In this document: positions 72 through 7,400 of the stretch, piece after piece
How positions within the stretch are numbered: the first letter of the stretch is position 1
Layout of the letters: each line of letters opens with the position of its first letter
Origin: Ignavibacteriae bacterium HGW-Ignavibacteriae-2
GTDB taxonomy: Bacteria; Bacteroidota; Ignavibacteria; Ignavibacteriales; Melioribacteraceae
NCBI GenBank assembly: GCA_002839805.1
Contig: PGYT01000022.1
Coordinates: forward strand, 1-38,242
Direction of reading: 5' to 3'
DNA length: 38,242 bases
Program-made: the position numbers and the translations under genes
Notes under the pieces: model-generated
Databases searched by the model: none
Seen by the model: only the letters and a program-made list of their open reading frames with translations
What the model was told of the DNA's origin: nothing

Positions 72-1118
72 TTATATTGGATGAAAACCCGGGAATTCCA
101 ATCCAGTAGTTTCTGGCAAACCGTGCATTATGTTAAAGGCCTGTAAAGCTTGTCCGGCGGCCCCTTTCATCATGTTGTCTATCGACCCGATTATTACTAC
201 CCTGTTTGTCTCTTCATCGATCGCAAAACCAATATCGCAGTAATTCGAACCAATTAAGAGTTTGGGTTCGGGATACCTGTATATTCCTTCCTTCTCTTTA
301 ACTATTCTTATAAATGGTTCGTCGCTATAATACTTTCTGTAAAGTTTCCAAATATCTTTGTCTTCAAGTTTCTGATTTGTAAATAAATGAATCGTTGCGA
401 GCACCCCCCGTACCATGTCAACAGAAGTTGCTGAAAAATTCACACTAATCAATTTACCAAAACTAAGTTCCTGTATTATTTCCGCACTGTGCCGGTGTTG
501 AACAGGCATATAAGACCTCAACGATCCAGCACGCTCCGGATGATGCGAAGAAGCCGAAAACTTATTACCCCCTTCACTAGTTCCAACTTTAACCTCTATA
601 ACCGTTCTGTCTTTCTCAGCCAGCCCCTCTTTGAAGAAGGGGTATAAGGAAAGGATGGATACAGTAGCATTACAGCCCGCGCTTGAAACATAATTAGAAG
701 TTTTCATCCTTTCCCTGTGAAGTTCAGGTATACCGTAAACAAATTCATTTAATAAATTTGGTTTTTCATGGTCATGCCCGTACCATTTTTTATATGTATC
801 TAAATTTTTCAGCCTAAAATCAGCCGACAAATCAATAATTTTATCCGCCAATTCCTTATAAACTTCTATATTTTTTTGTGACTGACCATGTGGCATGCAC
901 AAGAACAACACATCACATTTTTCCAGTTCAGATATAGAACTAAATTTTAGTTGAGTAACTTTACGCAGATTTGGATGTGATTTATACAAATATTTACCTA
1001 CCATACTTTCCGAAGTTATCTGTCTCAAATCTATATTAGGGTGAAACAGCAATAGACGAATCAATTCTCCACCTGTATATCCGGAACCGCCAACTATCGA
1101 AACTTTTAATTTATTCAA
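72..1118 (-). CDS. lysY: LysW-aminoadipate 6-phosphate reductase (LysY, ArgC family)
   Basis: Reduces the phosphorylated, LysW-bound aminoadipate to its semialdehyde with NADPH in the cytoplasmic carrier-protein lysine pathway. The N-terminal Rossmann motif VGGSGYTGGE is at residues 9-18. The catalytic Cys149 lies in SSAGCNAT; ordinary ArgC usually has GCYPT here, and GCxAT is what I expect for LysY. HHPERAG carries the downstream active-site His. At 348 residues it has normal family length. I chose the TTG at 1116-1118: it sits 4 bases after a strong GGAGGG that lies in the last codons of lysX. An in-frame GTG at 1131-1133 has no such site and would add five residues. It follows lysX with one base between the genes. 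The next pathway gene (a LysZ-type kinase or LysJ) is not present in the 71 bases left. A role in arginine synthesis with the same carrier is possible and cannot be excluded from this gene alone. Confidence 0.88.
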   Translation of the reverse strand: MNKLKVSIVGGSGYTGGELIRLLLFHPNIDLRQITSESMVGKYLYKSHPNLRKVTQLKFSSISELEKCDVLFLCMPHGQSQKNIEVYKELADKIIDLSADFRLKNLDTYKKWYGHDHEKPNLLNEFVYGIPELHRERMKTSNYVSSAGCNATVSILSLYPFFKEGLAEKDRTVIEVKVGTSEGGNKFSASSHHPERAGSLRSYMPVQHRHSAEIIQELSFGKLISVNFSATSVDMVRGVLATIHLFTNQKLEDKDIWKLYRKYYSDEPFIRIVKEKEGIYRYPEPKLLIGSNYCDIGFAIDEETNRVVIIGSIDNMMKGAAGQALQAFNIMHGLPETTGLEFPGFHPI

Positions 1119-1119
1119 G

Positions 1120-1965
1120 TTACCCTCCTGCACCTATTTTTAGTACATAGTCCACAATATGTCCAGGAATATTTACGCCCGTAGTTGATATACTGTTTTT
1201 AAATTCCATTGTATAGTTTACTTCGTTAACCATCAATTGCCCGTCATTTTCAAAAAGATCGATTGCCAAAACGCCTCCTCCAACAGCTGATGCAGCAGCT
1301 AATGATAAATCCGCTATTTCGGGGGTTACCTTACAATTAACCGCTTTTGCACCGCGCGCAGTGTTGGTAATCCAATGTTCGGATTCTCTATAAATGGCAC
1401 CAATACAATCTTCGCCAACTACAAAGCTCCGGATATCTCTGCCTTTTTTTTCAATATATTTTTGAATATAGAAAATGGAATGATGATATGTCCCCAAAAC
1501 AGTCTTATGTTCAAGTATCGATTCCGCAGAATCCCGATCATTTATTTTTGAAAGCAGTCTTCCCCATGAACCAACGGCCGGTTTTAATACAACGGGATAT
1601 CCCATTGCTTCAATAGCCTGCAGAGCAGATTCTTCGGTAAAAGCAATTCTAAGTTCCGGCTGCGCAACATTGTATTTATCAAGTTGAACTGAAGTTAAAA
1701 GTTTATCGCCGCATATAGTAGCCACAGAAGAGTTATTAACACATTTTACTCCGGCGTTTTCAAAAAGTTTTATTGCGTGTAATGCCCGGCTATGGTTTAT
1801 CGATCTTTCAATAACAACATCGTAGTCATATTTGTCTTTGCCTAAAACAAATTGAATCTCCCTGTCATCAATCATTACCAAATCAACATTTGGCCTTTTG
1901 CCGAATTCTTCCAACAGATATTTTTCGTCTTTTCGTATAAGAGAATGTAATATTCCTACTTTCAT
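1120..1965 (-). CDS. lysX: LysW-aminoadipate ligase LysX (RimK-like ATP-grasp)
   Basis: ATP-grasp ligase that forms an isopeptide bond between the amino group of alpha-aminoadipate and the terminal side-chain carboxylate of LysW, which protects the amino group. At 281 residues it is standard for LysX/ArgX. Visible features are the lid lysines K88 (GDKLLTS) and K128 ([12 protein letters not shown]), the NTARGAKAV segment near 201-209, and the metal ligands D236 (LAIDLFE) and E248/N250 ([13 protein letters not shown]). The C-terminal [11 protein letters not shown] is typical of this family. The ATG at 1965 is preceded by AAGGGA. It lies 39 bases downstream of the homocitrate synthase gene and its last codons contain the ribosome site for lysY. 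Whether the substrate is aminoadipate or glutamate cannot be read directly; the neighbouring homocitrate synthase argues for aminoadipate. The carrier in this operon ends in Gln (see lysW), which this reaction would not accept without prior deamidation. Confidence 0.9.
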
Positions 1966-2004: not shown

Positions 2005-3174
2005 CTACTTTGAGCCGCGTTTATAATGTTTAGAGGTTTCAACAATGTGGGGTAATTCGGAAATGTCAACTATCCTACCGCGTTGGCCGATAATTTTAAT
2101 GTGGTTAAGAATTTCAATTTCCAATTCTTTTTCAATGTTATCCATGCCTATCTGCTGTAAAGCAAATCGAAGTGAAGCAAGTCCAGACATATGATCTAGC
2201 GCAAAATGTCGCTCTCTGCCGAATAAATGGGGGCTAAGACTTTCGTAATGCATTGGGTTAACAGAAGCGGCATGTGTATGAACACCTGCACAATGGGTAA
2301 ATGCGTTTTTTCCAGATACGGGATAATTAACGGGAATTGGTATTTGAGAATAATTACTTACAAGTTGATAAATTTCCGGCAACTTATCAAGGTGCCAGTG
2401 ATTTTGATCATAATCAACTGATAAAACCGCAAGCAACTGCGCAAGATCAACTATTCCCGCTCTTTCTCCCAAACCTAAAACTGAAGCGTCAATTATGTTT
2501 ACTCCCGCTCTGTATGCATCTAAGGCATTAGCCAAAGCTAGACCACGGTCGTTATGGCAATGTACAGCAATCTGAGGCTCTAAATTTTGGGACGCAAAAT
2601 CATCACGCAACTTTGATATATAATCATACATGCTTCTCGAAGTACCAGGTACCATATAACCCGTTGTATCAGCGACACTAATAATATCTGCGCCCGCCTT
2701 CACTGCGGCTGAAGCAGCGGTTATAACATTTTCGTAATTTGATCGGACAGTATCTTCAGGAGTATACCGAACCAACAAATCAGGATTCTTGTTTTTAGCG
2801 AATTCGATAGATGAAGTAATTTGGGAAATAGCTGAGCTTAAATCAGTTTTAAATACTGAACTTAATCGTTCATCCGATACACAGTAAAAAATACCAAGAA
2901 ATCCTACTCCACATTCTAAAGCCAATTCAATATCTTTTTTTATTGAGCGGGCATGAGCTCCGATAATAGAATTATATCCTTGTCCTGCTAACATTTTTAC
3001 AGTAGAATAAATTTCTTCCGAAACCGCCGGGTGTCCGGTTTCAATTATATCAATTCCAATTTCATTAAGCTTTTCTGCTATGGCCAACTTAATATGACTA
3101 TCGAAGTAAACGCCGGGAGTTTGCTCTCCCTCGCGCAAAGTCGAGTCAAGTATTTTAATATTTACTGTCCCCAA
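2005..3174 (-). CDS. hcs: Homocitrate synthase (DRE-TIM metallolyase)
   Basis: Condenses acetyl-CoA with 2-oxoglutarate to homocitrate, the first step of the aminoadipate route. The TIM-barrel active site is visible: LDSTLREGEQTPG (catalytic R14/E15), the homocitrate-synthase-like RYTPEDTVRS near 136-145, and the metal-binding HCHND at 205-209. FTHCAGVHTHA lies further on. At 389 residues it lacks the C-terminal LeuA regulatory domain, so it is not ordinary 2-isopropylmalate synthase. The start is TTG at 3172-3174, supported by AGGAAG about 8 bases upstream inside lysW; no ATG lies before the conserved ILDSTLREGEQ. The first 13 bases overlap the end of lysW in another frame, implying translational coupling. 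NifV is the main alternative, but there are no nitrogenase genes here and the lysW/lysX/lysY context decides for lysine. Confidence 0.85.
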   Translation of the reverse strand: MGTVNIKILDSTLREGEQTPGVYFDSHIKLAIAEKLNEIGIDIIETGHPAVSEEIYSTVKMLAGQGYNSIIGAHARSIKKDIELALECGVGFLGIFYCVSDERLSSVFKTDLSSAISQITSSIEFAKNKNPDLLVRYTPEDTVRSNYENVITAASAAVKAGADIISVADTTGYMVPGTSRSMYDYISKLRDDFASQNLEPQIAVHCHNDRGLALANALDAYRAGVNIIDASVLGLGERAGIVDLAQLLAVLSVDYDQNHWHLDKLPEIYQLVSNYSQIPIPVNYPVSGKNAFTHCAGVHTHAASVNPMHYESLSPHLFGRERHFALDHMSGLASLRFALQQIGMDNIEKELEIEILNHIKIIGQRGRIVDISELPHIVETSKHYKRGSK

Positions 3175-3332
3175 TCTTCTTCTTCCTGAGGAGCTTCCCT
3201 TAATTTAACGGGATTTGTTTTTATCACTTCTAATTCTGCACCACAATCCTGGCATTCTATTAATTCCCCTGATACAACTTTGTCGTCAAGTTCTAATAAT
3301 GCATCACAAACAGGGCAATCAGCTTTTTTCAT
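3162..3332 (-). CDS. lysW: Amino-group carrier protein LysW, with a C-terminal Gln
   Basis: A 56-residue acidic protein that carries biosynthetic intermediates on its C-terminal residue. Two zinc-knuckle pairs are visible, CPVC (C6/C9) and CQDC (C27/C30), followed by GAELEVI and a very acidic tail ending EEEDWGQ. The EDWG signature is diagnostic of LysW. Known LysW proteins end in EDWGE, and the gamma-carboxylate of that last Glu takes the substrate; here the last codon before TAA is CAG (Gln). The start ATG at 3330-3332 has an excellent GGAGG 5 bases upstream, and a 276-base leader precedes it. The stop overlaps the TTG start of the homocitrate synthase gene by 13 bases. Identification of the family is firm; the terminal Gln is either real, implying a processing step, or a base error (CAG for GAG). 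Confidence 0.92.
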   Translation of the reverse strand: MKKADCPVCDALLELDDKVVSGELIECQDCGAELEVIKTNPVKLREAPQEEEDWGQ

Positions 3333-4417: not shown

Positions 4418-7400
4418 CTATGCTTTTTTTCTGGAACTGATTAAATAATAAAACGCAGGAATCACATAAAGTGCAAGTATTGTTGAAACCAATAACCCAC
4501 CGATACTTACAACACCTAAAGGTATTCGCATTTCTTTACCCGCATCTCCTATACCAATAGCCATTGGCAGCATACCGAGTACTAAAGCCAGAGTAGACAT
4601 AAGAATAGGTTTAAGTTTTGTAGGACAAGCTTTTATAAGAGCTTCTTTCGCGTCGAGACCTTCTTCACGGACCAGCTGATTAGTATAATCCAGCATAAGT
4701 ATCGCATTATTTACAACTATACCGATAAGCATAATTATTCCCATCAAAGAAGTTATGCCGAATGCTGTATTCGTATAATAAAGTGAAGCAAAAACACCAA
4801 TCATGGCAAGTGGTAATGTAAGTAAAATTAGTATTGGCTGCAAAAAACTCTCCAATATAGCCGCAAGCAGCATATAAGTTAATATAACTGCCAGAAAGAA
4901 AGCAAATGCCATGTCTGCGACCATTTCATTCATCATTTTTGTATTACCACCCCATGTAACCTGATATCCCGCAGGCAAATCGAGCTCGCTCAATTTTTCC
5001 TCAATAGCACTAGTTACATTCCCTAGTGGAACACCGCTGGCCGGTGAGCCTGTAAAAAGTATTGAGGTATATTTATCGCGATGTAATATTTTAGTGAATC
5101 CTTTCGTAAATTTAATATCAGTCAATTGAGATAATCTGTACACTACACCTTTTTGAGATATTATCGGTATTTCACCCACTTCCGTAGGCGTGTTTACAGC
5201 TTCATCATCCACAGTAATAGTGATATCGTATTCATTCCCAAATTCTCTATACTTACTGGATTCCATTCCTTCAATTGTTGATCGGAGAGTAAGAGCAATT
5301 TCCTGGGCTGTTAATCCGGCATCGGCAAGTTTTTCTCGTTTAGGAGTTATTGTAATTTCGGGTTTACCCGCGCGAGAACTATTATCAAAGTTTATTAATC
5401 CAGGGGTATCTTTAACTTTTGCTATTATTTCTTCTTTTAATTCTTCTAGTTTATTTAAATCCTGACCCATCAAGAAAAATTGAACAGGTGCTCCACCCTG
5501 ACCGCTCTGGGAACCATAATCCACAGCAATTTTTGCATTAGGAATATCTGACAATTCCACCACAAATTTTGATATCATTTCACTCAATTTAATTTCGCGG
5601 GCATCTTGATTAACCAATTGAACCTGGGTATAAAATTTATTTGGACCTATATCCAAGTCGCTAATTTTTCCTAAATTCGTTACTATGTGCTCAACTTCAT
5701 CATGTTTTTTTATACGGTTCTCAATTTCGCTAAGTACGTTTGCGCTTTCAGTTAGATTAAAGCCCTCTGGTAATTCTACTTCAATTTTAATTTTACCATC
5801 GTCAAACTGCGGCATAAATTCGAAACCCAGTTTTGGTCCGTAATACAGCGTTGCGCCAATAAAAATTACAAATGCAGACACCACCACAATTACGCTTCTT
5901 GTTTTATTAACTAATATTTTTGCCAATATTTTACCATAACTCCTATCCCACGAATCGAATATTGCGTTCAGTTTCTTCCCGATTTTTCCTTCCTTTTCAG
6001 AACGAGGAAGCATTCGGGATGCCAACATAGGTGTTAAAGTAAAAGAGAACAGGAGTGAAAATATTGTTGCAAACGAAGCCGAAAGCGCCAGCTCCCTTAA
6101 AAACTGACCCACTATGGATGACATATTTGCAATCGGCAAAAACACAACTAAATTTGTAAGTGTTGATGCGAGCACCGCTACTGTTACTTCCGATGTTCCT
6201 ATATAAGCGGCGTCTTTATTGTTTTTGCCCATTTTTTTATGGCGGAAAATATTTTCCAACACAACAACCGAGTTTGCTACAAGTACACCTACGGATACAG
6301 AGATACCCATTAAAGTCATCATGTTAAGAGTTAAACCGGCGGCCTGTAAAAGCATAAATGTAGAGATGATTGACGCGGGCATTGATAATGCCACAATAAA
6401 AGTAGAACGAATATGAGTTAAAAATATGAACAATACAAGTGAAGTGAAAAGAACACCTAGAATAATATTGCTCATTGTATCGTCTACTGTACTTCTTGTA
6501 AATACAGAATTATCGTTTAAAATTTCCAGTTTTACGTCCGCACCTAAAGTCTGCTGAATATCCGGCAATGATTCTCTAATAGCTTCAGCAACACGAACTT
6601 CATTTCCTTCAATACTTTTTACTATTCCAAGCTTAATTACGTTGTCATCTTTATAGTTTTCATCAACGTTAAAATAAACAGCCCTCTGCCTTATGTCTTT
6701 ACCCGTATCTTCAACTTTAGCAAGCTGACTGAGCCGTTTTAAACCGAACGGAGTTGGTATTTGTAAATTTTTAATGCTCTCAATATTATTATATTCCCCC
6801 TGAAATCTTACCGTATATTCCTGATCATCTATCTGGAAATAACCGCCTGGAATATTCATATTATGAGAAGCAATTATTTGCATCAATTGCGGAAGAGAAA
6901 TATAATTTTCGAATATAGTTTTATTATCCAGCACTATTCTAATTTCTCTTTCCTGACCGCCTATAATATTTACTTTTGCAACTCCCTCAATTTGCGAAAA
7001 TCGGTCGCGCAATTTTTTATCGGCAATTTCGTATAATTCACGAGGGTCCACATCCCCTGTTAAAACCAAATCCATTATAGGAAAAGCTCGAATATCAACT
7101 TTTTCTACAATTGGTTTTTTCGCATCTGTAGGCAAATCATTTAAAATTGCATCGACTTTATCTTTTACTTCCTGATTCGCTACATCTACACTTTTGCCCA
7201 ATTTAAATTCGAGAATTACAATTGAGAAACCATCTAAAGAGTATGATTCTACTTTTTCTATCTGACTAATTGTTGAAACCGCGTCTTCTATACGTTTACT
7301 AATTAAGGTCTCAATTTCTTTTGGCCCCGCACCGGGATATATGGTTTGAACCGTTACATAAGGAATTTCCACATCGGGCATTCTATTAAGATTAAGATTA

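Follow-up and report, generated by a model that had tools for sequence, protein, structure and literature searches.

We analysed a stretch of 38,242 nucleotides from Ignavibacteriae bacterium HGW-Ignavibacteriae-2 (GenBank assembly GCA_002839805.1, contig PGYT01000022.1, positions 1 to 38,242; hereafter the window), in which lysW, the gene for the amino-group carrier protein of lysine biosynthesis, ends in a Gln codon where Glu is expected. The terminal Gln is almost certainly real, and Gln-ended LysW is a recurrent natural variant. The lysine operons of relatives hold an extra gene for a class II glutaminase-fold protein (GAT), which very probably takes the place of LysK, the metallopeptidase by which lysine is normally released from LysW, in a non-orthologous replacement, and we hold with moderate confidence to the whole explanation, that GAT both replaces LysK and deamidates LysW-Gln. 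Among the papers listed by searches of the open PubMed Central (PMC) literature, which mostly leaves out subscription journals, we found none that describes a Gln-ended LysW or a lysW operon with a glutaminase-fold gene.

The window lies at the end of a contig, C140, and the genome (4.16 Mb) is 99.92% complete. Its lysW (3162..3332, minus strand) runs from ATG to GAA GAA GAA GAT TGG GGA CAG TAA and encodes 56 residues ending in E-E-E-D-W-G-Q, with the terminal CAG at 3165..3167, as a sequence-only reading of this DNA had it. The protein scores 67.6 bits with the curated LysW model TIGR01206 (cut-off 53.2) and 67.8 bits with PF21344, and 66.5 bits with a second model, NF041070, below its cut-off of 75. 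The zinc-type cysteines C6, C9, C27 and C30 (two CxxC knuckles) and the EDWG tail are all present and lysX and lysY score over their cut-offs, so that the system looks intact, again as that reading had judged. A LysW should end in Glu, to whose gamma-carboxylate the substrate is bound; here the encoded residue is Gln, and since DNA does not show how the mature protein ends, we class the protein as a variant or precursor form of LysW. The earlier statement that such a terminus lacks a free carboxylate holds for the gamma-carboxylate, which is missing, but not for the alpha-carboxylate, which is kept. No second, Glu-ended LysW that could serve the pathway in its stead was found, the genome giving a single LysW match at E <= 10.

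Relatives share the Gln end. Both other genomes of the genus that were examined have it (G001, CAG TAA; G002, CAG TAG), as does Stygiobacter electus 09-Me (L028), whose record is titled as a strain and not as a metagenome-assembled genome (MAG). The nearest named relatives are Melioribacteraceae MAGs. Counting Gln against Glu ends, as the sequence-only reading had proposed, gave Gln in 11 of the 41 family genomes (79 in all) with an EDWG[E/Q]-stop pattern, spelled CAG or CAA, with Glu and Gln ends mixed within genera g13, g37 and g48. Gln ends also occur in the KSB1 group (3/11) and in Calditrichota (5/15). LysW matches were found in 15 of 39 relatives, including a spurious one (L015; 31% identity, a long unrelated frame) that we dropped as not LysW; without it, 18 of 94 loci end in Gln, with about 14 distinct Gln sequences and several genomes present twice. 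Elsewhere in the phylum the lysine pathway was seen in 19 of 395 genomes, all inside the order. On a LysX+LysY tree of 57 GAT rows (44 Glu, 13 Gln), the Glu/Gln label needs at least nine changes, of which well-supported branches force four (shuffled labels average 11.8), and the window's genus forms a single all-Gln clade with full support. The tree was built quickly and some of its branches are long, and lysY is absent from one of the 57 rows; the trees omit L168, L183 and L199, where lysW and its lysX do not lie together on the stretch or only a remnant is present.

The extra gene was seen in the same-genus genome G001 (L126), between lysY and lysZ, and encodes a 211-residue protein starting MCRLL. 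It matches PF13230, a class II glutaminase family, at 32.1 bits (cut-off 23); with the EgtC model TIGR03442, four GATs score 31.6-52.3 bits (52.3 for that of G001), under the cut-off of 218.65. GAT is present in 47 of the 79 family genomes, among them all 11 that are Gln-ended; of the 41 that have the LysW pattern, 40 carry it and one (G076, 80% complete and Glu-ended) does not. Among 43 family stretches annotated using the G001 proteins, the order lysW-hcs-lysX-lysY-GAT-lysZ-lysJ (hcs, homocitrate synthase) is whole in 33; nine others are truncated where the contig or stretch stops but are consistent with it, and the last (G020) holds only a remnant. In the window's own genome GAT lies outside the window and so out of sight of the sequence-only reading, at C126:1523-2155, on a contig that also holds lysZ, lysJ, argC and argJ; directly upstream, in lysY's place (L163, C126:1-2155), stands an alcohol-dehydrogenase-like frame, named by eye. 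With that frame instead of lysY preceding GAT, the operon of this genome is split or interrupted, and C140:1-400 and C126 share no 15-mer. ArgJ, encoded downstream, points to a separate route for arginine. Two side observations concern the distribution of GAT: a single-contig Calditrichota genome (G971; L293, C1) has the whole operon, GAT included, with a Glu-ended LysW, and two MAGs titled Woesearchaeota (G112 and G118; L061 and L068) carry GAT at E < 1e-98 and give no LysK match, through either lateral transfer or mis-binning.

LysK is missing where GAT is found. LysK (TIGR01902, cut-off 163.1) exceeded the cut-off in none of the 79 family genomes, the best score being 101 bits, compared with 4 of 14 control genomes; no LysK match at E <= 1e-5 lay within 30 kb of the family operons, and three genomes that are 99% complete and have LysW and GAT (G008, G022, G073) gave no match at that threshold. 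Of 48 other genomes, found by way of further LysW loci, 25 have GAT (E < 1e-70) and 20 have LysK over cut-off; none has both and three have neither (G095, G114, G140). Two members of this set (G102, G113) appear from their contigs and positions to duplicate family genomes G085 and G080, already counted above. One LysK genome (G120) has a weak GAT relative only, which bears the ordinary Asp at the position discussed below. LysW ends in Glu in all 20 LysK genomes, and in Gln in three of the 25 GAT genomes and one of the three with neither (G095). Every Gln end tested except that of G095 occurs with GAT, the G974 stretch being too short to tell. As GAT is the sole operon gene without a role in the pathway and LysK the sole role without a gene, GAT is the natural candidate to stand in for LysK and to deamidate LysW-Gln.

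An AlphaFold model of GAT, built from nine GATs of named loci (predicted local distance difference test score 90.2, predicted template modelling score 0.87), has EgtC as its best structural match (Foldseek E 2.5e-11; VIA Z 21.6, root-mean-square deviation 2.2 over 192 residues, 20-21% identity), followed by 3mdn (18.8) and GlmS (18.5). A sequence search of the PDB with GAT gave only spurious matches (designed filaments, a LysM domain), and the link to EgtC rests on structure. GAT has the marks of the class II, or N-terminal nucleophile (Ntn), glutamine amidohydrolase fold, with an N-terminal Cys nucleophile and an oxyanion Asn-Gly, and by its modelled fold it would be an EgtC-like Ntn amidohydrolase. 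In an alignment of 34 GATs with Escherichia coli GlmS, YafJ and four class II paralogs, the equivalents of GlmS Cys1, Arg73, Asn98 and Gly99 are kept in 34/34 GATs, whereas the position of GlmS Asp123, which is Asp in GlmS, YafJ and the four paralogs, is Gly in all 34. In GlmS we take the carboxylate of free glutamine to be held by Arg73 and its amino group by Asp123, roles for which a search of the literature gave no paper. The change of Asp to Gly is as expected of an enzyme that would act on the C-terminal residue of a protein, since Glu or Gln in that place still has its alpha-carboxylate free but lacks a free amino group.

According to PMC10433800, LysX links aminoadipate through its amino group to the gamma-carboxylate of the last Glu of LysW, and its GSWGR motif recognises EDWGE. 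GSWGR is kept in 57/57 LysX rows and no LysX column is near-diagnostic for Gln, the largest LysX+LysY contrast being 7/11 against 5/44; a contrast across all LysX rows was dropped, its Glu group mixing GAT and LysK systems. With the motif kept and no column tracking Gln, the ligase probably still receives a Glu-ended LysW. GAT would then turn encoded LysW-Gln into LysW-Glu, which LysX would charge, and after conversion of the bound substrate GAT would take over the step of LysK, freeing lysine from LysW: deamidation, charging, conversion and release, in that order. Both activities would amount to one hydrolysis, that of an amide at the gamma-carbonyl of LysW's last residue, the removal of lysine from LysW-gamma-Glu-Lys and of ammonia from LysW-Gln being the same chemistry. 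If the enzyme that unloads the carrier also uncaps it, the last codon of lysW would be free to drift between Glu and Gln. The sequence-only reading had supposed deamidation before charging, in the manner of Pup and Dop: this is the reading that fits best, but the candidate enzyme, whose activity is predicted, is a relative of EgtC and not Dop-like.

When all nine Glu/Gln changes on the tree are counted, all of them in the GAT part, a uniform-rate test on tree length gives p ~0.006 with 19 LysK rows and p 1e-4 when 38 Chloroflexota rows are added. The latter come from 40 LysW loci fetched among the matches listed, all 40 of which end in Glu and 38 of which gave LysX, LysK not being tested genome by genome in this group. 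The EDWG[E/Q]-stop pattern occurs in 145 of 400 Chloroflexota genomes; among the matches listed, three rows coded Gln (G222, G501, G503) proved when read to be chance patterns and not LysW. Six further Chloroflexota genomes among those listed (G194, G260, G276, G348, G380, G416) have two or three EDWGE-stop patterns ~200 bases apart, either tandem lysW copies or chance neighbours.

Several points weigh against the whole explanation. M20 relatives scoring below the LysK cut-off are present in 70 of the 79 family genomes. The Gln-ended G095 shows neither GAT nor LysK, on a contig that ends 393 bases after lysW. Counting only the four forced changes raises p to 0.10 (19 LysK rows) or 0.019 (Chloroflexota added), the genome count above (3/25 against 0/20) is not significant (p 0.24), and GAT and LysK rows separate by two changes and one change on the LysX trees, so that the cause could lie in any other trait that goes with the GAT clade. 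LysA, moreover, passes its cut-off in 11 of the 16 Gln-ended genomes examined for it, that of the window (G000) included, and in none of three Glu-ended genomes, a small control; the LysA-bearing Gln genomes may have another lysine route, and Gln may go with a relaxed need for the pathway. Finally, as most GAT systems have a Glu-ended LysW, deamidation by GAT would be at most a side job.

This last point is also what favours the alternative that survives best, in which GAT replaces LysK and Gln is tolerated because another amidase, or a spontaneous reaction, deamidates LysW-Gln; deamidation cannot then be the main purpose of GAT. A general amidase should, however, act in LysK systems too, and Gln ends were not found there (0/20 LysK genomes, and 0/40 of the Chloroflexota loci read), which makes this version unlikely. 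Rather less likely is relaxed selection, in which the Gln lineages make lysine by way of diaminopimelate and LysW-Gln does not work or is hardly used, as the LysA counts would have it. Against it, LysA does not reach its cut-off in five Gln-ended genomes, one of which (G050, 98% complete) has no LysA match of any kind; and in the Gln-ended pair G081/G084, both with LysA, the ratio of nonsynonymous to synonymous rates (dN/dS) is 0.03-0.08 in lysW, lysX, lysY, GAT, lysZ and lysJ, as under strong purifying selection (pairs from the window's own genus are mostly saturated, with NG86 dS undefined for most). Real decay looks different: the remnant of G020 (L300, G020:C65:112000-120000) retains lysW (6438-6584), ending in EDWDE, and lysJ (5036-6190) and nothing else of the operon, hcs, lysX, lysY, GAT and lysZ having gone from between them.

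A third alternative dispenses with deamidation altogether: LysX would use the alpha-carboxylate of the terminal Gln as the point of attachment for its substrate, and the peptide bond would be cut at the end. That carboxylate is indeed free, and LysX belongs to the RimK family, RimK itself attaching to the alpha-carboxylate on S6. The swaps between Glu and Gln within g13, g37 and g48 come, however, without a matching change in LysX, with GSWGR invariant, and the Arg that would hold the alpha-carboxylate is kept in every GAT aligned, which argues for an alpha-carboxylate that is free; we consider this improbable. Slightly more doubtful still is a scheme in which LysW sits on GAT as a gamma-acyl thioester and can be passed straight to aminoadipate as well as to water, so that LysW-Gln is charged by transamidation without ATP, LysX serving only the recycled Glu carrier and Gln being a pre-activated, single-use starting charge. 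A sequencing or assembly error reading GAG as CAG, which the sequence-only reading had named as the simplest alternative and for which one base would suffice, has next to no chance of being right, since the same type of Gln codon, CAG or CAA, recurs in many independent records, those of the genus and other relatives included.

The other pathway genes of the window follow lysW on the minus strand in the order homocitrate synthase, LysX and LysY, after which the contig ends. The homocitrate synthase gene (2005..3174; TIGR02146, PF00682, PF22617) probably starts at a TTG at 3174 inside lysW, with a 13-base overlap, and the hcs start has the identical arrangement in G001; its best NCBIfam match is TIGR02146 LysS, at 349.7 bits under the cut-off of 413.55. 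GAG at the terminal lysW codon would replace Thr by Arg in the overlapping homocitrate synthase, an effect of that base correctly foreseen. The lysX gene (1120..1965) encodes an ATP-grasp ligase of the RimK family with GSWGR, which would load aminoadipate onto LysW (TIGR02144, 345.9 bits, cut-off 275.6; closest solved structure 3vpd). The lysY/argC-type reductase gene (72..1118; TIGR01850 argC, 396.5 bits, cut-off 233.6) has an inferred TTG start at 1118, the mechanical open reading frame being 72-1133, and the contig end lies 71 bases beyond it. Two LysX-like genes beside one lysW were seen in KSB1 (L066, 3757-6500; L074, 3783-6562) and in Anaerolineae, Thermoflexales (L090, L091), perhaps with lysine and arginine divided between them; at the KSB1 loci GAT might release both products.

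GAT is a candidate for a missing step of the lysine pathway. Its proposed double role would explain repeated evolutionary flips of a supposedly essential catalytic residue and predicts a class II glutaminase-fold enzyme working on a protein C terminus; annotation that requires a terminal Glu would wrongly throw out working LysW genes. Compared with known systems, the operon resembles the LysW aminoadipate pathway of Thermus thermophilus and archaea in LysW, LysX, LysY, LysZ, LysJ, homocitrate synthase, the EDWG tail and GSWGR, and differs in that LysK stands there in place of a class II glutaminase-fold protein and that here the carrier can end in Gln. LysK and ArgE-type M20 deacylases, which would do the same step as GAT and are absent where GAT is present, are unrelated to it in fold and chemistry. 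For Caldithrix abyssi, the genome paper places LysWXZYJ and Hcs in one locus and considers that the lysine pathway needs further study, non-orthologous displacement being possible (PMC5317091). EgtC, which according to PMC9103826 removes the glutamyl residue (glutamate) from a gamma-glutamyl amide, shares with GAT the Ntn class II glutaminase fold without a synthase domain (Z 21.6); unlike EgtC, GAT falls under the EgtC cut-off, lies in a lysine operon and has Gly for the amino-clamp Asp of class II enzymes. Closest in working principle, and in that only, is the Pup system, where according to PMC8599861 Pup is encoded with Gln in some species and Dop both removes Pup and deamidates Pup-Gln. 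Dop is a relative of glutamine synthetase and GAT an Ntn hydrolase whose two activities are predicted, and the cargo of LysW is a free amino acid; if both activities are true, the unrelated pairs Pup/Dop and LysW/GAT share one logic, in which a single amide hydrolase uncaps and unloads a carrier.
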